From the IMG/VR virus record IMGVR_UViG_3300035704_000002, positions 1-64,000 of that record: a stretch of DNA of 64,000 nt. The stretch is one strand, 5' to 3'. The stretch is from a virus. The notes beneath the pieces were generated by a model. The model was not told the DNA's origin. It saw only the letters and a list, made by a program, of their open reading frames with translations, and ran no database searches. This document shows, piece by piece, positions 51,184 through 60,755 of this stretch. Position numbers and translations under genes: made by a program. Each line of letters begins with the position of its first letter. Position 1 is the stretch's first letter.

Positions 51184-52800
51184 GTGCCCGGCGTGGCGCA
51201 GCGGCGGTTCCTACCCGCGCTCCGGCGCATCTTCGCGCCCGCCCTGGAAAGCAAAGGTCTGCCCGAGCAGGTGCGCGCCAGTTCCCAGGCGTACCTCGTG
51301 CCTGGCGTCCCGTACTCGCAGAACTGGTCCACTCAGCGTGCCGTGCGCGAGGCGTACGAGCCGAATCCGCTGGTGTATCGGGCGATCGAGGTACTGGCCA
51401 CCAACGCGATCAGCCAGCGCATCGTGTTGCGCCAGGGTGACCCCGAGGAAGGCCCGATCATCGACACCGCGCACGACCCGACGCGGCTGCTCTACGTGTT
51501 CAACCGCCGCGCCAACCCGTGGGAGACCGCCAGGGTGTTCCGTCACCGGTTGGTGGCGCAGTGGCTACTGTCCTCACGCGGGCTGTTCGTGGAGATCATC
51601 CGCACACGCGGCGGCGGCATCGCCATGGTCAACCTGCTGGACCCCGACCTGGTCGACATGATCCCCGACCGGACCGACCCGATGCACGCCTTCCGGGTAC
51701 GCACCCCGAACTCCTCCACCGGATTCGACTACCTACCCCGCTTCGATCCGGCCAAGACCGCGCGCGAACAGCCCGCCTCCATCCTGTGGATGCGCAACCC
51801 GCACCCGACTGTGGCGTGGCAGGGCATGAGCCCGGTGCAGGCCGCCGGCCTGCCGATCGACCTGGATCGTTACGCCCGGCTCTACAACCGCCGATTTCTA
51901 CAGAACGACGGCCGGCCCGGCGGCCTGCTCTCGATCAAGGGTGTCGTGGCGCCGGCCACCATGGAGCTGATCCAGAGCCAGTTCATGGGCGGCCCCGACT
52001 CGGCCGGCCGTACCACCGTGATCAACGCCGACTCGGTGTCCTACGCGGACACCAGCGGCTCGCCCCGTGACACGCTCTGGGGCGACACGATGGACCGCAA
52101 CCGGCGCGAGATCTGCACCGCGTTCGGGGTGCCCGAGAGCGTGCTGGGCGACGCGTCCGGCCGCACCTTCTCCAACGCCGACGCCGAATACGCGATGTTC
52201 TGGGAACACCGCATGCTGCCGCTGGTGCGGGCGCTAGATGACCAACTCGACATCCTCACCGAGATCATGGGGCCGGATGTCTATTTGCGTCACGATGTGT
52301 CCAAGGTGTGGGTGCTGGGTCGCTACCAGCGCGAGCACGAGGACCGTCTGGCCGCCGACCAGCAGGCCGGCTACCGCACCATCGATGAGGTGCGGGTGGC
52401 CAAGGGCGAGAAGCCCCAGAACGTGCCCGCCACCCGCGTGCTGTGGATACCGCCGGGCAAGCTCGCCGTGGCCGACGCGAGTCGTCCGCACGACGCCGAG
52501 GAAGCCGCCGCCGCGCCGATCGGCGGCCCGGTCAACGCCGGCTCGGCCGGCTCCGGCGCCGCTCAGGCCGGCGTCAACCACCTGTCCGGCTCGGGCTACA
52601 GCGCCGGAGACACCGACTATCTGGGCAGCGGCAAGGGTGGCGGCGGCAACTCCGACCTGCGTTTGCTGTCCGGCTCCGGCGGCGGCCGGGCCGGTGGCGG
52701 CTTCGAGAACATGGGCGAGATCGACCCGGACGAACTGGAGGGTAAGCAGAGCGGCCCGCGACGCTGGGGCTCCCCCAGTGGAGCCCGCATCGCCGGTTAA
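51184..52800 (+). CDS. Portal protein (HK97/Phage_portal family)
   Basis: 538 aa. YEPNPLVYRAIEVLATNAIS (about 55-75), SRGLFVEIIRT, NPHPTVAWQGMSPVQAAGL (about 203-221), RRFLQNDGRPGGLLSIKG, FGVPESVLGDASGRTFSNAD (about 317-336) and EHEDRLAADQQ are standard portal landmarks. It forms the dodecameric vertex for DNA entry. The last 100 residues are Gly/Ser-rich with repeats (GSGYSAG, GSGKGGGGN, SGSGGGRAGGG). GTG 51193 fits the upstream GGGAGG better than GTG 51184. The end overlaps the MuF gene by 23 nt. Confidence 0.93.
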   Translation: MPGVAQRRFLPALRRIFAPALESKGLPEQVRASSQAYLVPGVPYSQNWSTQRAVREAYEPNPLVYRAIEVLATNAISQRIVLRQGDPEEGPIIDTAHDPTRLLYVFNRRANPWETARVFRHRLVAQWLLSSRGLFVEIIRTRGGGIAMVNLLDPDLVDMIPDRTDPMHAFRVRTPNSSTGFDYLPRFDPAKTAREQPASILWMRNPHPTVAWQGMSPVQAAGLPIDLDRYARLYNRRFLQNDGRPGGLLSIKGVVAPATMELIQSQFMGGPDSAGRTTVINADSVSYADTSGSPRDTLWGDTMDRNRREICTAFGVPESVLGDASGRTFSNADAEYAMFWEHRMLPLVRALDDQLDILTEIMGPDVYLRHDVSKVWVLGRYQREHEDRLAADQQAGYRTIDEVRVAKGEKPQNVPATRVLWIPPGKLAVADASRPHDAEEAAAAPIGGPVNAGSAGSGAAQAGVNHLSGSGYSAGDTDYLGSGKGGGGNSDLRLLSGSGGGRAGGGFENMGEIDPDELEGKQSGPRRWGSPSGARIAG

Positions 52801-55261
52801 CGGCCAAGACCTGCCCGCCATCGCGCCCGCCGACATCACCACCACCGAAGCCCATCCCGCCCCGGCGCCCGGACCCGATCGGGAAGCGCTGGTGCTGGCC
52901 AGCCGGGCACGCATCGACGCCGCCCAGGCCACGATGACCGGCGCCCTGGATGGCTACCTGTCCCGGCTGGACGGCGTGGTCACCTCGCGCGTCAGGGGGC
53001 CGCGTGTGCGCAAGGGCACGCGCTGGTGGGGCGAGAACGCCAAGAGCCTGCACACGCCGATCTCGCTGGGCGGCGTGACCGGCCTGGAGACCAAGGCAGT
53101 GGACACCGGGTACGCGCTGCCGGACAAGCTGGTCGCCGAGGCGGCCGACGTGGCCCGCCCGATCGCGCAGCGAATCGCGCACGACGCCGCGCTGGCCACC
53201 GCCCGGTCGCTGAGTGTGCGTGTGCCCGGCGATCCGGCCGATATCTCGTTCGCGGTGGACCATGTCGCCCTGGAGCAGGCCGTGGATCGGGCCGTGAGCC
53301 GCGTCCAGGCGGTCGCCGACCACCACGCCACCCTGATCCGTGACGCCATCGGCCACGCCGACGCGCACGCCGAAACACTGGACGAACTGCTGGGCCAGGT
53401 GCAGGCCGCGCATGCCCAGGGCGCCGCCTGGGTGCGCATGGCCGGCCGCGCGGTGACCAACGGCCTGATCCAGGATGTGTCCACCGGGCAGGCGCGCGCC
53501 CTGGGCGTCACCCACGCGCAGTGGCTCTGCGTTGCGGCGGACACCAGGGTTTGGGCGCCAGGCGCGATCAATGTCGCTCAGCGATGGAGTGATGAGGGAC
53601 TACTTCGGATCGCGACAGCGCGGACGGTAGGCACCAGAAATATCCTGTCCGTCACCCCGGATCACCCGCTCCTGACTCAACGCGGTTGGATTTCGGCGCG
53701 CGAGATTCACCCAGGAGATCGACTCGTTCGCAGCGCCTTCGCCCAGAGGGAATCGGGGGGTAACCCACACATAGAGAATCTTCCAGCCAAGATCAGCGAG
53801 ACGTTCCGCGCGGCGGCGCAACTTCGCCCGACCGAGCGGATTATGCGCGTTGCGCCATACTTCGATAGCGACAGGCGCGGCAGCTATGTCGATGTTGTAC
53901 CGATCGACAGCGAGCTGCGGGACTGTCTGCAATCCGCGTTCCATGAGCCACGCGCTCAACTGCTGCTCACCCTCTCCGACCTTGACTTGGAGGGCTTGCT
54001 TGAGCTTCGCTCGTTCCGCCACCACGGCATCAGGTTGGCGTCGTCCAACGTTGAGTCCCGCCAGAAAAACGTTGCGCCCAGCAGTAATGTCGACAGCCTC
54101 ATGAGCGATACGGTTGAGACCAGCGGCCGAGTGGCTCCGCCAGGTGATGCCACGCTCCGTTACGATGAGCTTGATCATTTTGAGGGAAGTGTCGAATTCG
54201 ACCGCCAGTGCTCGCGCGGCACGCCCCGCGACGTATCCGGCGACGATGCCTTCCTTGTCCAGTACGCGACGGTTCCAGCGCAGCGCTTGCGCGGCCCTGG
54301 ACTGCTCGGTAGCTTCGGGGTGAGTCGCGAAGCGGATACGAACGGCTTGCTCGGGGGATCGCAGGACACCAATGTCGCGCAGCCTTCTCCTGATGGTTTC
54401 CGCGCTGACTCCCTCCAGAGTTTCCGCGATCTCGCGGGGCGATTCTCCGATTTGGTAACGCTGGACCAGGTTGTCGATGTCGAGTTCGATCCGACCCCTT
54501 GTCACGTGTACGACCTCCAGACGGAAACTGGCTGGTTCGTAGCCGATGGTTACGTCGTACACAATAGTCGCCGTGACGAACACGTGCGCCCCACCCACGT
54601 GCGGGCCGACGGCCAGGTGCGCGAACTGGGCGCGCCGTTCCGAGTGGGCACGGTCGACCTCGCCTATCCGTGCGATCCGGCCGGACTACCCGACACCTGG
54701 CCCGAGGTGGCCGGCTGCCGATGCGGCCTCCTGTTCCGCGCGCCGGCCGCCGACCACGCCCGCGCCCTGGGCACCCTGTCGACCACCCGGCCCAGCCGCG
54801 CTGGGCCGGGTGCGTTGGCCCTGCTGGCGGCCGTGGCGGCTGGGGGCATCGCGGTACACGAGGTGGCCGCGCCGTTGGGGGTGGCCGGTGGCCCGGACGG
54901 CGCGCCGCCACCATCCCGGCAAGTCGTGACCCACCAGTCGGTGGTCGGCTACCGCGCGCTGGAGCAGGAGCTGGCGGTGACGCCGGGGCAGTGGCTGCGC
55001 CTGCCCGGCCCGATCGTGCTGGGGTTGAGTGCGCCGAGCCTGTTCGCCGAGGGCGCGCCGGTGCTCTCGGTGCTGATTCCGGCTGGCGTCACGCTGACCG
55101 TGGCCGGCGGCCTGGCGGTACTGGCGGCCGGCACGGCGCTGGAAGTGCTCTCCAACGGTCCGACCGGCGTACAGGTGCAGGTCGCGGCACCGCAGGCGTC
55201 CTACTCGAAACCTACTCGAAACCTTGCCGCCACGGACGCGATCACCGCGCCGGCCACGTGA
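52778..55261 (+). CDS. MuF-type head morphogenesis protein interrupted by an intein
   Basis: 827 aa as translated, about 481 after splicing. GTG 52778 overlaps the portal end. N-extein: Ala-rich helical, ending GVTHAQWL. Intein: 346 aa, starting at Cys 53528 (CVAADTRVW) and ending GYVVHN at 54565. C-extein begins SRRDEHVRPTHVRADGQVRE, the MuF core with DPAGLPDTWPEVAGCRCGLL. Joined, the exteins restore QWLSRRDEHVRPTH, so the insertion sits in the most conserved spot. The tail (about 130 aa) is a hydrophobic, beta-rich extension. Acts inside or at the portal during head assembly. Confidence 0.85.
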   Translation: MEPASPVNGQDLPAIAPADITTTEAHPAPAPGPDREALVLASRARIDAAQATMTGALDGYLSRLDGVVTSRVRGPRVRKGTRWWGENAKSLHTPISLGGVTGLETKAVDTGYALPDKLVAEAADVARPIAQRIAHDAALATARSLSVRVPGDPADISFAVDHVALEQAVDRAVSRVQAVADHHATLIRDAIGHADAHAETLDELLGQVQAAHAQGAAWVRMAGRAVTNGLIQDVSTGQARALGVTHAQWLCVAADTRVWAPGAINVAQRWSDEGLLRIATARTVGTRNILSVTPDHPLLTQRGWISAREIHPGDRLVRSAFAQRESGGNPHIENLPAKISETFRAAAQLRPTERIMRVAPYFDSDRRGSYVDVVPIDSELRDCLQSAFHEPRAQLLLTLSDLDLEGLLELRSFRHHGIRLASSNVESRQKNVAPSSNVDSLMSDTVETSGRVAPPGDATLRYDELDHFEGSVEFDRQCSRGTPRDVSGDDAFLVQYATVPAQRLRGPGLLGSFGVSREADTNGLLGGSQDTNVAQPSPDGFRADSLQSFRDLAGRFSDLVTLDQVVDVEFDPTPCHVYDLQTETGWFVADGYVVHNSRRDEHVRPTHVRADGQVRELGAPFRVGTVDLAYPCDPAGLPDTWPEVAGCRCGLLFRAPAADHARALGTLSTTRPSRAGPGALALLAAVAAGGIAVHEVAAPLGVAGGPDGAPPPSRQVVTHQSVVGYRALEQELAVTPGQWLRLPGPIVLGLSAPSLFAEGAPVLSVLIPAGVTLTVAGGLAVLAAGTALEVLSNGPTGVQVQVAAPQASYSKPTRNLAATDAITAPAT
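53528..54565 (+). mobile_element. Intein 1 (in the MuF protein)
   Basis: Block A starts with Cys (CVAADTRVW). Block B is SVTPDHPLLTQRGWISAREI, with DHPL in place of TxxH. C-terminal blocks F/G are PCHVYDLQTETGWFVADGYV then VHN, with Ser as +1 residue. The middle 200+ residues in this frame read as nonsense-like but stay open, because the endonuclease is encoded there on the minus strand. The intein is visibly poorer in GC than the exteins. Confidence 0.9.
53600..54505 (-). CDS. Antisense VSR/DUF559-like homing endonuclease inside intein 1
   Basis: 301 aa on the minus strand, wholly within the intein. GTG 54505 has a clear TGGAGGT about 8 nt upstream, itself inside the intein's C-terminal coding part. 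An N-terminal HTH (NLVQRYQIGESPREIAETLE, ETIRRRLRDIGVL) is followed by a linker. The nuclease end reads RYNIDIAAAPVAIEVWRNAH and AKLRRRAERLADLGWKILYV, like DUF559/VSR-type PD-(D/E)xK enzymes. The coding pattern is coherent along its length. Overlap with the splicing domains is about 160 nt at its 3' end and 60 nt at its 5' end. Confidence 0.82.
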   Translation of the reverse strand: MTRGRIELDIDNLVQRYQIGESPREIAETLEGVSAETIRRRLRDIGVLRSPEQAVRIRFATHPEATEQSRAAQALRWNRRVLDKEGIVAGYVAGRAARALAVEFDTSLKMIKLIVTERGITWRSHSAAGLNRIAHEAVDITAGRNVFLAGLNVGRRQPDAVVAERAKLKQALQVKVGEGEQQLSAWLMERGLQTVPQLAVDRYNIDIAAAPVAIEVWRNAHNPLGRAKLRRRAERLADLGWKILYVWVTPRFPLGEGAANESISWVNLARRNPTALSQERVIRGDGQDISGAYRPRCRDPK

Positions 55262-55565
55262 ACTGACCGGCCTCGTTGCCGTGCACGACCTTCTGCACCC
55301 AGTGGGTATCGGTGCCATCCAGCCACACCTGTCCGTTGACGGGCGTATCCGGGTCGATGGTGCGCGAGCCGTGCGGCAGCCCCCACAGCCGCACGATCAG
55401 CATCGGGAAGACCTGGCCCGGCGCCACGGCGTTGCCTCGGTGGATCAGTTCGCCGGCACCGTTGCGCGCCCGGCGCTGGTGCTCGATCTGGCGTATATCC
55501 TCGACGGTGAGTTGGTAGAGCACGAGTCGGGGCGGATTGGGCAGCGAAGCGTCCTGGGTTCCCAT
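55242..55565 (-). CDS. Hypothetical protein, 107 aa
   Basis: ATG 55565 lies 6 nt after TACCGT, with CCGACA 17 nt upstream, so it is predicted leaderless from a promoter lacking the palindrome. Beta-rich (PPRLVLYQLTVEDIRQIEHQ, VFPMLIVRLWGLPHG). The only minus gene in the head region; its end overlaps the MuF gene by 20 nt. Unrecognised. Confidence 0.62.
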   Translation of the reverse strand: MGTQDASLPNPPRLVLYQLTVEDIRQIEHQRRARNGAGELIHRGNAVAPGQVFPMLIVRLWGLPHGSRTIDPDTPVNGQVWLDGTDTHWVQKVVHGNEAGQFTWPAR

Positions 55566-55671
55566 GTCCGCACGGTAGTCGGACACCTCGATCGTGTCGG
55601 CATGCCGGCCGCGCCGTCGCGCTGGGCTAGATTCACCGCGACGATCACAACTATTACCCAGGAGTAACACG

Positions 55672-56955
55672 GTGGGAGCTGCACCCGAGGTCGCCGACCC
55701 GTGGTCATCCCTGCGTCACACGCTCGAACGCACCAACACCTGGTACACGATGGCGTCGGGACTGGTCAGCGGTGCGCGCAGCCTCTACGCGCACTGGCGG
55801 GAACACAGCACCTTCACCGTGTCGGTGTCCAGCGCCGATCCCGGCTACCAGGACGTGCACGACTGGCTCGTGAACGCCGTACCGCCGGCCCGGCGACGGG
55901 CGCTGATGGTGTGCTCCGGCCAGCCCTATGCCGACTCCTCCGACGCCGTGCCCGCGTCGGACTCGCCGCCGACCGCCAGCGCACCGGTGCGCCTGGCCTA
56001 CGACTCCGGCCACGAACAGACCGTGCTGGTGTCCGGCCGGGCGGTGCGGGTGGCGTTGGCGCGTGGCGAGGACGACAGCGCCGGCTCGGGCGGCATGCGA
56101 CGTGTCCCGCCGGACCGGATCGTGTTCCGATGCCCCAGCCAGGCGGCCCAGCAGGCCGTCATCGACCACCTGATCACGATCATCGGTGACCGTTCGAACC
56201 GGCGCCGGACACCCCAACTGCACGTGCTCTCCTCGTGGGGCGGCTGGACGCGCCGTTCCGACATCCCGCCGCGCAGCCTGGAATCGGTTGTGCTGCGTGC
56301 CGGCCAGATGGAGGAGTTGATCTCTGATCTGGGCGAGTTCCTGAGCGCCGAGACCGAGTACATCCGCAGGGGTCAGCCCTGGCACTACGGCTGCCTGCTG
56401 CAAGGTCCGCCCGGCACCGGCAAGACCAGCATCGTCAAGGCGCTGGCCAGCCACTTCGGCCTGGATCTGTGGCACGTGCCGCTCGGCGACCTCATCAGTG
56501 ACACCAGCCTGTCCACCCTGCTGGCGCAGGTGCATCCGCGTTCCATGCTGCTGCTGGAGGACGTGGACATCTACGCCGCCGCGACCAGCCGCAAGGCCGA
56601 GGCGGAACAGGTGTCGCTCTCGGGTCTGCTCAACGCGCTGGACGGGGTGATCACGCCACACGGCCTGATCATCGTACTGACCAGTAACGAGCCGGCATCC
56701 CTCGATCCCGCGCTGGTCCGGCCCGGCCGCATCGACCGGGTGGAGAACGTCGACCACCTCACCGACGAACAGGCACACCGGCTGTTCGTCACCTTCTACC
56801 AGCAGCCTGCGCGGCTGACCTGGACCATCGCGCCCGAGACCGCCAGCGCCGCCGTCATCGGCGTGTTCAAACACCACCTGCGCGACCCGGACGCGGCCGA
56901 GCGGGCGCTGTGCCGCGCACTGGCACACCAGCCTCCGCTCCCGGTACCGGTGTAG
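55672..56955 (+). CDS. BCS1-like AAA ATPase
   Basis: 427 aa. Residues 1-170 are an N-terminal domain of the BCS1 style. The AAA module has Walker A LLQGPPGTGKTS (about 240), Walker B SMLLLEDVDIYAA (about 290), sensor GLIIVLTSNEPASLDPALVR and arginine-finger RPGRIDRVENV (about 338-358). GTG 55672 follows CAGGAG. BCS1-type ATPases thread or remodel folded proteins; between portal/MuF and capsid genes it may serve head assembly. Phage copies exist but are not common. Confidence 0.85.
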   Translation: MGAAPEVADPWSSLRHTLERTNTWYTMASGLVSGARSLYAHWREHSTFTVSVSSADPGYQDVHDWLVNAVPPARRRALMVCSGQPYADSSDAVPASDSPPTASAPVRLAYDSGHEQTVLVSGRAVRVALARGEDDSAGSGGMRRVPPDRIVFRCPSQAAQQAVIDHLITIIGDRSNRRRTPQLHVLSSWGGWTRRSDIPPRSLESVVLRAGQMEELISDLGEFLSAETEYIRRGQPWHYGCLLQGPPGTGKTSIVKALASHFGLDLWHVPLGDLISDTSLSTLLAQVHPRSMLLLEDVDIYAAATSRKAEAEQVSLSGLLNALDGVITPHGLIIVLTSNEPASLDPALVRPGRIDRVENVDHLTDEQAHRLFVTFYQQPARLTWTIAPETASAAVIGVFKHHLRDPDAAERALCRALAHQPPLPVPV

Positions 56956-57011
56956 CCCCGGATCACCCAGTCGGCGAGCCTGACCGAGAAACCCCGCCGC
57001 ACGCTGCCACG

Positions 57012-60000
57012 ATGTCGCGCGTGGCGAACCGAGACCCCGAAGCAGACGGCCCGCGCACCTCGGGCATGGTGGCGCTGATGCCCACGGCGGCCGATGCCCA
57101 ACGTCTCGCCGTGGACGGCGGCGAAGACCCCGACCAGTTGCACCTCACGCTGGCCTACCTCGGTGACAACGCCACCGGCCTGCCGCCGGAAACCCAGCAG
57201 GCACTCCATCAGGTGATGGGGCACCTGGCAGCCGAGACACCGCCGGTGGACGCCCGCGCCGCCGGGCATCTGCTGCTGAATCCCGACGGTGGCCCGGACG
57301 GTGACCGCACGCCCGTGGCGGCCTACCTGATGTCCGACTCCGACGCGCTCACCCCGCTGCACGAGGCGGCGAAGGCGGCGGCCGGCGCGGCCGACCCGGC
57401 CCTGACCCAGTTCTCGCCGTTCATCCCGCACGTGTCCGGCGCCTACGACCGCGACGCCGGAGCGCTGGGCTACGCCGGACCGGTCAGCTTCGACCGGATG
57501 CGGGTAGCGATCGGCGACGGGCACACCGACTACCCGCTGACCGGCCCGGCGTCCGGGGGCACCGATCCGGATGCCGACGGCGACATTGATGACGGCACCG
57601 GCGTGAACACCGACGACGACCCCACCGTGGGCGATGACGGCGCCAGGTCCGACAAGCCGGAGGGCAAGTCCGTGATCAGCCTGGCCGAGTTGGTGGAGCT
57701 GGCCGAACTGACCAACCTGGTGAGCGAAACCAAGGGCGACGCCCCCGACGGCGGCAACTCCGACGCGCCGCCCCACTCGATGCCCGACGGCAGCTACCAG
57801 ATCAACCATCCCGGCCAGCTCAAGCAGGCCATCAACGCGCTGACCGCCTACCAGGTCGCCAAGGGCAAGCGCGGGGCGCTGCGCAAGCATGTGATGAAGC
57901 ACGCCGCGCGATTGCACGCGCAGAACATGGTGCCACAGTCCATTCAGGACGAAGGCGACGACGACCCCGACGCCAAGAAGGACGCCGCGCCGGAGCCGGT
58001 CGAGACGAAGAACGTCGTGGCCACCCAGGCCGGCGTGGCCAGGTACGGCAAGCCGATCGGGACCGTGCTGGGCGCGCCGCGTGATGCCGCCGCCGCGCAG
58101 GCGCAGAAGGACACCGGCGCGGTCACCGCCTACCAGGATCTGCTCGCCGGTAACACGCGGAGCGTGGAACCGCTGAACACGATGGACCCCAGCAGCCTCG
58201 AAGCACTCACGCGCGTCGCCTACAGCTACAAATCCTCCGATCCGAAGGTCGTGGCACTGCGCGTGCAACTGGCCAACGAGCTGGCCAAACGCGGCCTGAA
58301 GGTCACCAGTTTCGGCGCCCTGGGCGGTGGCGGACCGACCAAGCCCGCCAGGGGCAAGGCGCCGGTCAAGCCGAAGGCGCCCGCGAAGCCGGCCCCGACT
58401 CCAGCGCAGGTTGCCGGCGCGCGCGGCGTGGCCGCGCCGCACGTCCAGGCCAAGGGTGATCTGGACGTCACGGAGGTGGAGTACAAGACGAAGTACACCG
58501 CTGATGACCGGCGCACCATGGCCAAGAAGGGGCAGGCGCTGCCGGATGGTTGCCTCTCTGGTGACACGTTGGTGGCAACTCGCAATGGCTCCGTCCGCAT
58601 TGACGCCCTCCCGTCTGAGTGCGAATTGCTAACTGATCACGGGTGGACGCAAGCTACTGTCTGCGGATTTGGAGTACAGAAACTGCGAGCTGTTGAACTG
58701 TTTGACGGTGTGCGAACCGAGATCGTCCACGCTACGTCAGGTCACAGATGGCTGATTGATGGTGGCGACTGGAGACTCACAGACGATCTGATCGTTGGCG
58801 ACCGCATTCCCCATGTTGATGTATCGAGCAATGATTTCAATGCCGACCTCGTCAACACGGCCCATCAGCGTATTGCACGTAAGGCAAAGCAGACCCCGCA
58901 CCATTCCAGTGCGATGGTCGTGATCAACCTGGAAGCCGGTCCATGTACGACCGGTACGAGTGTTGGCACGATTGATCTTCGGGATGCGATGACAGATAGC
59001 ACACAGGCCGCGCTGACTGGCAAGAAGTGCGTCGAACTCCGCTTGTCCAATGCTGTACTTGCGCCGCAGCATTCCATCTCGGCGACGCATCCAGCGCTCA
59101 TCGGCAACATCCACCCGTTCAGCGCTGGTGCGTGCTCTGTTTTGGCAGCAGAAACGGCAGTCGGTTCGCCGACGCTGATTGCGGATATAGAAATCGGTAT
59201 GCGGTCGTTCGGCGCCGCAGGTGCGGCAGGTGACAAAACCGACATAGCCGACTGGTACACCCTTGGCGTAAACGGACACGGTCATCCCACGAATGCTACC
59301 CGTTCGTGGGAGGTTGTGGGTATCAAAGCCACGCGCCGCATCGAGGAGGTTTTTTGCGCACTGGTTCCAGACTTGCACCGGTTTGTACTAGCCAGTGGCG
59401 TTTTGACCGGAAATAGTTATCCGATCATGGACCGGTCCGACCTGGACTCCGCGATCCGACTACGCGGACGGCACAGCGAATACTCCGCCGATACGGTCGT
59501 CAAGCACATCGTCAAACGCGCCAAGGCGATCGACGCCACCGACATGCTGCCCGACGGCATGGCCGCCGGGGTGCAGGAGAAGCAACTGTCCTGGGACGGC
59601 GCGCCGGACGCGTTCACGGCCGGCGTGCTGCTCGGCCTGTCCGGCCTGGACACCGACGAAGCGCTGGAGCTGAAGGCCGGCCCGCCGGGACACACCTTCG
59701 CCTCGCCCGACCCGAACGCCGCACGGCTGCGCCGGTACTGGGTGTTCGGCAAGGGACGCGCAAAGATCAACTGGGGTGTTCCGGGCGACTTCGACCGCTG
59801 CGTCGCGGAACTCACCAAGTACGTCGGCGACCGCGCCAAGGGCTTGTGCAACATCTACCACCGCTCCGCGCTCGGCGTCGCGCCCGGCCAGGAGGACAAG
59901 CCCGGCCACGCCGTCGCCAAGGCCGTGGGTGCCATGGTGGGTGCCAAGAAGTCCGAGGACGACGAGACCGAAACCAAGGCGCTGACCGCGTTGTGGGTAC

Positions 60001-60755
60001 GCGACCCGGCCGCCGTGGACGGGTGGCGTGCCTACGCGCCCGCGTGGCCACTGGATGACGACCTGATCGCGGAAATGAAAGCGTTGCGTCCCAACAAGCC
60101 CAGCGGTGGCTACGTCGGGGCCGACGACGAGGAGGACAGCCCCGACGGCAACGCGCCCGACGATACGAACAACACCGACTCGGGCACCGACGACGACGTA
60201 CTGTCCGCGCTGGACAACTATGCCGCCATGGCACCACAGATCAGCCCCGAAGACGCCTACATGCAGGCCATCGGCGACCAGATCCCCTGGCAACTGGCCG
60301 CCACCGGCGATCTGGTCAACCCCGACTCGCCCGGTGGTGAAGTGCCTGTGCTACAACGCGAGGAAGCGCGGTTCGGTGAGGCCGGACCGTCCGACGCGGC
60401 CGTGGACGACCTGTCCGGCACCGACGAGGTACCCGACGCCGACGACGCCGGGGCGGATGACGACCCCACCTTCCCCGATGACGGTGATCTGAGCTTCGAC
60501 CCGGACGATACGAACGAGACCGATGACGGCACGGATGGCCCGGATGACGGCGCCGGGGACACCGGCGACGGTTCGAACGAGAGCGACACCGGCGCCGCCA
60601 TTCCGGAGGTGGCCGAACTGCTGGCCGACCTGATGGCCGAACAGGACACGGTGGCCGCGCCGACGGATGACGACGATGCTGGCGAGCCGGAGGAAGACAG
60701 CACGGCGATCACTACCGCCCCGAAGCGCCAGGCCGCCGCCAGTGTTACCGCGTAA
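57012..60755 (+). CDS. Capsid-region protein with 2H phosphoesterase domain and an intein
   Basis: 1247 aa translated, about 959 after splicing. ATG 57012 lies 6 nt after CACGCT. Residues 18-165 have the 2H (LigT-like) pair HLTLAYLGD and FIPHVSGAY. Next comes a helical motif (DGSYQINHPGQLKQAINALT, then HVMKHAARLHAQNMVP). It recurs after the intein (SYPIMDRSDLDSAIRL, HIVKRAKAIDATDMLPDGM), as in actinophage capsid-associated proteins. The intein splits the second DG-SYPI motif. A region with KINWGVPGDFDRCVAELTKY and an acidic tail of about 230 residues end it. Confidence 0.75.
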   Translation: MSRVANRDPEADGPRTSGMVALMPTAADAQRLAVDGGEDPDQLHLTLAYLGDNATGLPPETQQALHQVMGHLAAETPPVDARAAGHLLLNPDGGPDGDRTPVAAYLMSDSDALTPLHEAAKAAAGAADPALTQFSPFIPHVSGAYDRDAGALGYAGPVSFDRMRVAIGDGHTDYPLTGPASGGTDPDADGDIDDGTGVNTDDDPTVGDDGARSDKPEGKSVISLAELVELAELTNLVSETKGDAPDGGNSDAPPHSMPDGSYQINHPGQLKQAINALTAYQVAKGKRGALRKHVMKHAARLHAQNMVPQSIQDEGDDDPDAKKDAAPEPVETKNVVATQAGVARYGKPIGTVLGAPRDAAAAQAQKDTGAVTAYQDLLAGNTRSVEPLNTMDPSSLEALTRVAYSYKSSDPKVVALRVQLANELAKRGLKVTSFGALGGGGPTKPARGKAPVKPKAPAKPAPTPAQVAGARGVAAPHVQAKGDLDVTEVEYKTKYTADDRRTMAKKGQALPDGCLSGDTLVATRNGSVRIDALPSECELLTDHGWTQATVCGFGVQKLRAVELFDGVRTEIVHATSGHRWLIDGGDWRLTDDLIVGDRIPHVDVSSNDFNADLVNTAHQRIARKAKQTPHHSSAMVVINLEAGPCTTGTSVGTIDLRDAMTDSTQAALTGKKCVELRLSNAVLAPQHSISATHPALIGNIHPFSAGACSVLAAETAVGSPTLIADIEIGMRSFGAAGAAGDKTDIADWYTLGVNGHGHPTNATRSWEVVGIKATRRIEEVFCALVPDLHRFVLASGVLTGNSYPIMDRSDLDSAIRLRGRHSEYSADTVVKHIVKRAKAIDATDMLPDGMAAGVQEKQLSWDGAPDAFTAGVLLGLSGLDTDEALELKAGPPGHTFASPDPNAARLRRYWVFGKGRAKINWGVPGDFDRCVAELTKYVGDRAKGLCNIYHRSALGVAPGQEDKPGHAVAKAVGAMVGAKKSEDDETETKALTALWVRDPAAVDGWRAYAPAWPLDDDLIAEMKALRPNKPSGGYVGADDEEDSPDGNAPDDTNNTDSGTDDDVLSALDNYAAMAPQISPEDAYMQAIGDQIPWQLAATGDLVNPDSPGGEVPVLQREEARFGEAGPSDAAVDDLSGTDEVPDADDAGADDDPTFPDDGDLSFDPDDTNETDDGTDGPDDGAGDTGDGSNESDTGAAIPEVAELLADLMAEQDTVAAPTDDDDAGEPEEDSTAITTAPKRQAAASVTA
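58551..59414 (+). mobile_element. Intein 2 (in the 2H/capsid protein)
   Basis: 288 aa from Cys 58551 (CLSGDTLVATRNGSVRIDAL, block A) through TSGHRWLIDGGDWRLTDDLI (block B region) to RRIEEVFCALVPDLHRFVLA and LTGN, with Ser as +1. GC content falls sharply within it. The central frame is open but carries an endonuclease gene on the opposite strand. Confidence 0.92.
58737..59285 (-). CDS. Antisense endonuclease VII-like HNH homing endonuclease inside intein 2
   Basis: 182 aa from ATG 59285 (the frame is open to 59378). CRTCGAERPHTDFYIRNQRR...CRFC is a zinc ribbon. RRKYSIGQAEFDALLASQRG, LCAICHRI and FQVDHDHRTGMVRGLLC...CN form the recombination endonuclease VII core with its catalytic DHDH and zinc cysteines. 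The gene lies wholly in the intein on the opposite strand. The ribosome binding site is weak (GTGGG). Confidence 0.85.
   Translation of the reverse strand: MTVSVYAKGVPVGYVGFVTCRTCGAERPHTDFYIRNQRRRTDCRFCCQNRARTSAERVDVADERWMRRRDGMLRRKYSIGQAEFDALLASQRGLCAICHRIPKINRANTRTGRTWTGFQVDHDHRTGMVRGLLCLTCNTLMGRVDEVGIEIIARYINMGNAVANDQIVCESPVATINQPSVT

Follow-up and report, generated by a model that had tools for sequence, protein, structure and literature searches.

A phage intein with a putative homing endonuclease gene on the opposite strand of the same codons

Inteins are usually described with an in-frame homing enzyme or with none. Can the two functions be encoded on opposite strands of the same DNA? 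This question is raised by a head-morphogenesis (MuF-like) gene in a virus genome, IMG/VR record IMGVR_UViG_3300035704_000002 (128,202 bases), of which positions 1 to 64,000 were analyzed (64,000 nucleotides, hereafter the window). The gene contains an intein, and the strand opposite the intein encodes a putative nuclease. For this element and its relatives, we computed the anatomy, the conservation, the coupling of the nuclease start site to a splicing motif, the precise empty sites in relatives and the discordant divergence of inteins and exteins. With a probability of roughly 0.87, we interpret the element as a homing intein with two functions on opposite strands of the same DNA.

From these data we infer splicing, antisense expression, cleavage and homing. 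On the plus strand, the intein would be translated within the phage head-morphogenesis protein, and its terminal blocks would form a Hint domain that excises the insert, the about 170 residues between the splicing blocks being a mostly disordered by-product. On the minus strand, the same codons would specify an EDxHD/Vsr-like homing endonuclease with helix-turn-helix (HTH) DNA-binding regions, produced as a free protein by minus-strand transcription. In co-infection, alleles lacking the intein would be cut by this nuclease where the intein inserts, and their repair would copy the whole element in. Separate expression may allow the enzyme to act before, or independently of, late head-gene expression.

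Two genes in one codon register

The host gene is uninterrupted, forming a single open frame from 52238 to 55261. A first-pass annotation had described an intein in this frame with intact ends and no endonuclease motif, and both readings hold: the insert is open over 346 residues, starts with Cys1, ends in HN and is followed by Ser, and no endonuclease family in Pfam matched the plus-strand intein frame. The Pfam model Intein_splicing (PF14890) matched the insert with an expect value (E) of 2.7e-8 and 34.2 bits, just under the curated cut-off of 35.8, and the C-terminal splicing domain matched a profile trained on the same group at E 5.4e-17.

The annotation had further placed a coherent Vsr/DUF559-like nuclease with its own Shine-Dalgarno sequence and GTG start on the minus strand, overlapping splicing-domain codons at both ends. 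This was likewise recovered: the predicted product, read from the GTG at 54505 behind a GGAGGT motif, has exactly 301 residues and matches the nuclease domain REase MTES_1575 (2.4e-5) as well as HTH families in Pfam, all under curated cut-offs. Read from beyond 54598, the minus frame meets its first stop codon at 53602-53600. Because the nuclease overlaps intein residues 25-326 of 346, the splicing blocks are dual-coded at both ends.

Each minus codon is the exact reverse complement of a plus codon, so that the two genes have one common register. The complement of SVTPDHPL in block B encodes ERVIRGDG, a conserved segment of the nuclease, and in relatives a recurring plus motif, DFHGDG..G.V.VV (consensus), lies opposite the nuclease segments VAVEV and YNxD. 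Because the registers coincide, the plus frame would acquire a stop solely through a TTA, CTA or TCA codon in the nuclease, and a single kind of codon avoidance thus keeps both genes alive.

Recurrence in phages, viral contigs and genomes

A tblastn search with the minus-strand protein matched 97 phage records at E of at most 1e-3, and the relatives in other phages, with E down to 6e-28, lie under annotated MuF or head-morphogenesis genes. In all 16 phage loci that were read (L002-L017, chosen from the tblastn matches; L004 and L014 are near-identical), the nuclease was antisense to the annotated gene and in register inside the intein frame. These loci come from phages of Gordonia, Mycobacterium, Pseudomonas, Salmonella, Shigella, Escherichia, Klebsiella and Vibrio, and from an enrichment virus.

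A scan of viral contigs with the single protein (P0002) returned no relatives, and a profile scan (alignment A1) returned 219, of which the best 80 were taken as loci. In 80 of these 80, the in-register antisense frame was open across the match, the other two antisense frames being at most 176 codons long throughout; of the two patterns scanned for, one is the block B complement, which favours antisense loci. The N-terminal splicing block lay opposite the nuclease in 80/80 and the C-terminal block in 76/80, as judged with block models trained on these loci, and the 4 loci without a C-terminal block are cut by the contig end. Moreover, 31 stretches of genome contigs matched a scan that used the active-site pattern only; 6 of them encode relatives, and all 6 have the architecture, with the splicing motifs read by eye. 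Across 396 genomes of the phylum to which the Gordonia locus L118 belongs, 34 had a match at E of at most 1e-6, many to the HTH or nuclease part only. Among 15 loci checked there, splicing blocks stood opposite four strong full-length nuclease matches (one of them L118's own locus; 4 of the 5 places above 200 bits were read), and 11 weak nuclease-only matches lacked splicing blocks.

When 67 precursors were compared with Pfam (E of at most 0.01), 64 matched Intein_splicing, a model not trained on these loci, 44 Phage_Mu_F, 4 Phage_min_cap2, 2 VG15, 2 Terminase_3, and 1 each RtcB and a deaminase family. As judged from sequence, inteins with an antisense nuclease are a widespread class.

The element also occurs in genes other than MuF, namely deaminase, RtcB and terminase genes (phage Rctr197k, L009, and precursors in alignment A4). 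At one locus (L128), the antisense nuclease frame extends over 532 codons, with part of its HTH region present in an additional copy. At another (L043, and likewise L047), one MuF gene bears an intein at each of two sites; both inteins show on the plus strand the signature of an antisense nuclease, and the motif at which the first is inserted resembles the insertion site in the window.

The predicted nuclease start site lies opposite block F

Both intein ends were defined for 91 loci (75 viral, 15 phage and the window); five viral loci without a C-terminal boundary were excluded from the start-site and codon statistics. In 81 of the 91, the block F His has the predicted nuclease start opposite it; this count is in part to be expected, since the complement of every His codon is ATG or GTG. 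A Shine-Dalgarno-like motif precedes the start in 79/91. The complement of the block F Leu supplies the GAG or AAG of this motif. This Leu could be located in 55 non-redundant loci; 52 of them have CTC or CTT as its codon, whereas the exteins of these loci give a background of 0.371 (binomial 2.6e-19, the loci being not fully independent). As a control, we used 30 ordinary inteins from one phylum, 13 with and 17 without block F by the pattern used. The block F His was present in 0/13, the Leu was CTC or CTT in 5/10 (background 0.49), and a Shine-Dalgarno motif was found in 3. Thus, the predicted ribosome-binding site and start codon of the nuclease are the complement of intein block F.

The predicted nuclease fold and the probable mobility of the intein

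An AlphaFold2 model of the minus-strand protein, built with 51 sequences, reached a predicted local distance difference test score (pLDDT) of 86.6. It comprises an N-terminal helical part followed by a mixed core, the last strand of which (residues 279-283) is the block B complement. With Foldseek, I-Bth0305I (PDB 3r3p) ranked first (probability 1.00, template-modelling score 0.56 on the target, E 0.025). Profile A1 also matched I-Bth0305I (5.8e-4), and the wider profile A5 matched the DUF559-like enzyme 3hrl (2.3e-5) and Vsr (0.015). Residues Y203, N204, D206 and E215 are invariant in the 60 aligned of 67 representatives (alignment A3; seven with atypical starts were left out). D206 and E215, together with E180, which is nearly invariant, may correspond to residues of the EDxHD signature. 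By profile and model, the minus-strand catalytic core is related to Vsr and I-Bth0305I.

Empty alleles in related Gordonia and Salmonella phages join precisely at conserved gene motifs and are shorter by the exact intein length, 948 nucleotides for Vivi2 versus Shivanishola and 816 for SGPC versus SETP13. The Salmonella MuF gene is matched by 348 phage records, 58 of which cover at least 80% of it; among the 60 matches listed, 46 cover 52-57%, that is, the exteins only. For the Gordonia MuF gene, 110 records match and 7 cover at least 80%. Between Salmonella phage SGPC and Escherichia phage E2010, the inteins are 4.8% diverged and the exteins 31.6% and 20.5%, and L045 and L057 follow the same trend (intein 2.7%, exteins 7.7% and 12.0%). 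An intein far closer than the host genes between SGPC and E2010 is as homing predicts.

Both genes could be real and the nuclease could have a role other than homing, such as rival-phage exclusion, regulation or a domesticated use, given that phage homing endonucleases can also exclude competitors. We regard this as improbable: the precise presence/absence polymorphism and the discordant divergence of the inteins are what homing predicts, and the catalytic fold is nearest to that of an intron homing enzyme.

The splicing domain

Modelled with AlphaFold2, the plus frame has a Hint domain at both ends, with a mean pLDDT of 64.0 overall, and the best Foldseek matches of the model were splicing domains of the Mtu RecA intein (E 3e-3). 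Intein residues from about 130 to 300 are predicted to be mostly disordered. This disorder would fit a non-splicing remnant that interrupts the phage gene and leaves the nuclease as the sole working gene, but several findings make such a remnant decidedly unlikely. T43, H46 and the terminal Asn, N346, are invariant in 49 aligned inteins (alignment A6; nine with doubtful boundaries were left out), as is Cys1, on which the boundaries had been set. The in-register plus frame is open in all of the best 80 of 219 viral-contig relatives, the splicing domain is modelled at pLDDT 82-97 and resembles that of RecA inteins, and the empty alleles join precisely at conserved gene motifs.

Within the otherwise disordered middle, residues 80-125 (about 53765-53902) are modelled as a helix and strands with moderate to high confidence. 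They may form a genuine subdomain, or the modelled order may reflect conservation of the antisense gene.

Selection on both strands

The codons TTA, CTA and TCA were absent from 67 nucleases non-redundant at 70% identity (0 seen versus 333 expected from extein codon usage). At 24 loci with a guanine-plus-cytosine (GC) content below 55% (38-55%), 0 were seen versus 204 expected. The intein frame stays open because the nucleases contain none of these codons; the statistic requires an open precursor, yet none of the 80 viral-contig loci was closed. Substitutions were counted in 20 pairs of relatives; no relative was close enough to the window for pairing with the window itself. By plus-strand codon positions 1, 2 and 3, they numbered 2094, 1769 and 3281 in the exteins versus 1592, 745 and 1153 in the nuclease middle; each locus was used once, and the pairs are not fully independent, Fosterous appearing twice (L004 and L018). 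The peak thus lies at position 3 in the exteins and at position 1, the nuclease wobble position, inside the nuclease. This crossover bears out the claim of the first-pass annotation that both strands are under constraint, for which it had set selection on the minus frame in homologues as the test.

Could the minus frame be a shadow open reading frame (ORF) that arose by chance opposite a GC-rich plus-strand gene? A high GC content often leaves the in-register antisense frame open: for the window alone, 2.0 of the three codons were expected and the openness has a p of about 0.12 by codon usage, and 3 of 13 ordinary inteins reach 300 codons, the limit of the antisense run measured. On these figures, antisense openness was rejected as sole proof at GC-rich loci, and because of the p of the window, the statistical weight of the antisense claim comes from the relatives. 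There, however, the pattern holds at 38-55% GC, four nuclease residues are invariant and substitutions are biased to plus position 1. The minus frame is more than chance because relatives reach E 6e-28 and the AlphaFold2 model pLDDT 86.6, and a shadow frame is thus very improbable. Another reading, a group I intron that is spliced as RNA and holds the endonuclease gene antisense, has a precedent, in the part of the source available to us (PMC9548176), but deserves hardly any weight, given that Rfam had no match in 53000-55300 at E up to 1 and that the insert continues the reading frame of the gene and bears a protein-splicing block at either end.

Several points weigh against the interpretation as a homing intein encoded on both strands, among them those stated above on the start-site count, the scan pattern, the dependence among pairs and the openness of the window and of ordinary inteins. 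Foldseek returned nothing for the minus-strand protein at E of 0.001 or below (best 0.025), and 3r3p was not among the matches of profile A5 at E of at most 1. In the Gordonia pair L002/L003, the intein is more diverged than the exteins (13.6% versus 5.5% and 2.5%), and about half of the changed nuclease codons in Gordonia are nonsynonymous. Finally, a sigma-70 scan of both strands of 53400-55000 found no promoter-like site. A terminator-like site was not found on either strand of the same interval.

Genomic context and other antisense endonuclease families

The start part of the intein-bearing frame overlaps the portal gene (Table 1). The MuF-like label of the host gene is based on the PHROG matches of its C-extein, and Pfam Phage_Mu_F did not match the window precursor.

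Table 1. Positions of the features discussed, in window coordinates except for the phages Lennon and SchottB
Feature	Position	Strand	Evidence or remark
Portal gene	51184-52800		Precedes the intein-bearing gene
Intein-bearing head-morphogenesis (MuF-like) gene, open frame	52238-55261	+	C-extein matches head-morphogenesis PHROGs (e.g. phrog_3517, 2.6e-9)
Intein, 346 residues, Cys1...HN, with Ser+1 of the C-extein next	53528-54565	+	Motifs, Pfam, AlphaFold2 model
Predicted N-terminal splicing domain, residues 1-70, block B TPDHP	53528-53737	+	AlphaFold2 pLDDT 82-97 per 10-residue block
Plus-frame intein middle, putative antisense shadow of the nuclease	53738-54448	+	AlphaFold2 model
Predicted C-terminal splicing domain, residues 308-346, blocks F and G HVYDLQT...VVHN	54449-54565	+	AlphaFold2 pLDDT 94-96 (residues 311-346)
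Putative antisense nuclease gene, 301 residues, HTH regions and EDxHD/Vsr-like catalytic domain	53600-54505	-	GTG 54505, stop 53602-53600
Dual-coded segment: plus NILSVTPDHPLLT (intein block B) = minus SQERVIRGDGQDI (predicted nuclease C-terminal strand)	53639-53677		
Dual-coded segment: minus DRYNIDIAAAPVAIEVWRN (predicted nuclease active site) = plus VAPYFDSDRRGSYVDVVPI	53849-53905		
GTG start codon	54503-54505	-	Reverse complement of the CAC codon of block F His326
Shine-Dalgarno GGAGGT, 7-base spacer to GTG	54513-54518	-	Reverse complement of bases within the block F Asp-Leu-Gln codons
AAA ATPase gene	55594-56955		Follows the intein-bearing gene
Second intein, 288 residues, CLSGDT...TGN/S, in ORF 56910-60755	58551-59414	+	Motif only
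Putative antisense Endonuclease VII-type gene in the second intein, same register	58737-59285	-	Pfam Endonuclease_7, 5e-17
Lennon and SchottB inteins	L100:1074-1898, L102:1064-1888		Antisense genes 1775-1188 and 1765-1178

The second candidate intein of the window had no Pfam match and matched an intein-containing NCBIfam model only at E 0.097. The Endonuclease VII-type gene antisense to it is read from an ATG at 59285, a GTG start at 59378 being also open. One phage genome thus contains two unrelated antisense endonuclease families, this one and the nuclease at 53600-54505. In 11 viral-contig relatives of the Endonuclease VII (L103-L113, nine of them close to one another), the in-register antisense frame was open across the gene in 0/11. 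Phage records matching this enzyme number 468; the antisense arrangement was seen in one case, by a check that covered the 11 viral-contig relatives.

At the MuF site occupied in Vivi2, the Gordonia phages Lennon and SchottB have a different intein; antisense to it lies a protein of 196 residues, which we assign as LAGLIDADG-like on the basis of matches to I-MsoI (1.3e-3) and phrog_5046 (2e-15, labelled HNH). The Pfam LAGLIDADG score was poor (0.26, for one of the two proteins). The protein matched 18 phage records, 9 from Gordonia, where it is antisense in MuF-type genes, and 9 distant ones; no relatives were found in viral contigs.

Relation to known systems

Inteins with an in-frame endonuclease, such as those of Mtu RecA and VMA, resemble the element described here in the Hint domain, the insertion at conserved motifs, the position of the endonuclease between the splicing blocks and the existence of empty alleles, but here the putative endonuclease would be made separately from the opposite strand instead of as part of the intein polypeptide. 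Fractured genes, reportedly described by Dassa et al. in 2009, are said to have split inteins with a free-standing Vsr-like (EDxHD) endonuclease, the host gene lying in separate reading frames. The likeness is a Vsr-like/EDxHD endonuclease between intein halves, whereas here one unbroken precursor frame is present and the endonuclease is antisense and codon-aligned; a fractured gene with a split intein was rejected for the window, where 52238-55261 is a single open frame. I-Bth0305I, whose EDxHD catalytic domain is the nearest relative by solved fold and profile, differs in being listed as a mobile-intron protein and is not known to lie antisense to an intein.

In the phage methylase genes of ShiLan and Pacc40, in-frame insertions likewise conceal an HNH endonuclease in a different reading frame, but, according to the part of the paper accessible to us, on the same strand, without a splicing domain and with no ribosome-binding site found by the authors (PMC11855218). 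A hidden endonuclease of this type was rejected here, the nuclease being on the opposite strand and a splicing domain being present. The nuclear group I intron Dsq.L2066 has an antisense homing endonuclease gene within a self-removing element, shown to be active in the available portion of the report; unlike the intein, it is an RNA intron in eukaryotic ribosomal DNA, and its host strand has no protein frame that must stay open (PMC9548176). An intein in the Mu F protein of a Mu-like prophage of Methylococcus capsulatus was noted in 2004, in the section of the paper we could consult, as similar to archaeal IF-2 inteins and without a recognisable endonuclease (PMC517821). It is possibly a missed member of the antisense class. 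We found no report of an endonuclease antisense inside an intein in the portions of the open-access literature available to us, subscription papers being outside that scope, and the novelty of such an intein is provisional.

Implications

It seems fairly probable that these elements form a previously unrecognized 'two-strand' intein class, common in phage head genes, in which at least three unrelated endonuclease families (EDxHD/Vsr-like, Endonuclease VII and LAGLIDADG-like) have been acquired in antisense orientation and codon alignment. Within the main family, block F would double as the ribosome-binding site and start of the nuclease, and block B as one of its structural strands. Many 'endonuclease-free' inteins would then be active homing elements with an overlooked enzyme, the expression of which is uncoupled from that of the host protein.

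About 900 bases would thus specify, at dozens of diverse loci, a protein that splices itself and, from the complementary strand, an enzyme that cuts DNA, and the database label 'mini-intein' would have to be reopened. With 67 non-redundant natural examples of tight antisense overlap, questions on the evolution of overlapping genes would become directly testable, and cultured holders with close intein-free relatives, for example Gordonia phage Vivi2, would make homing testable by co-infection. Such inteins would show how coinciding registers let dual coding persist, with a conserved protein motif explaining the antisense start site.

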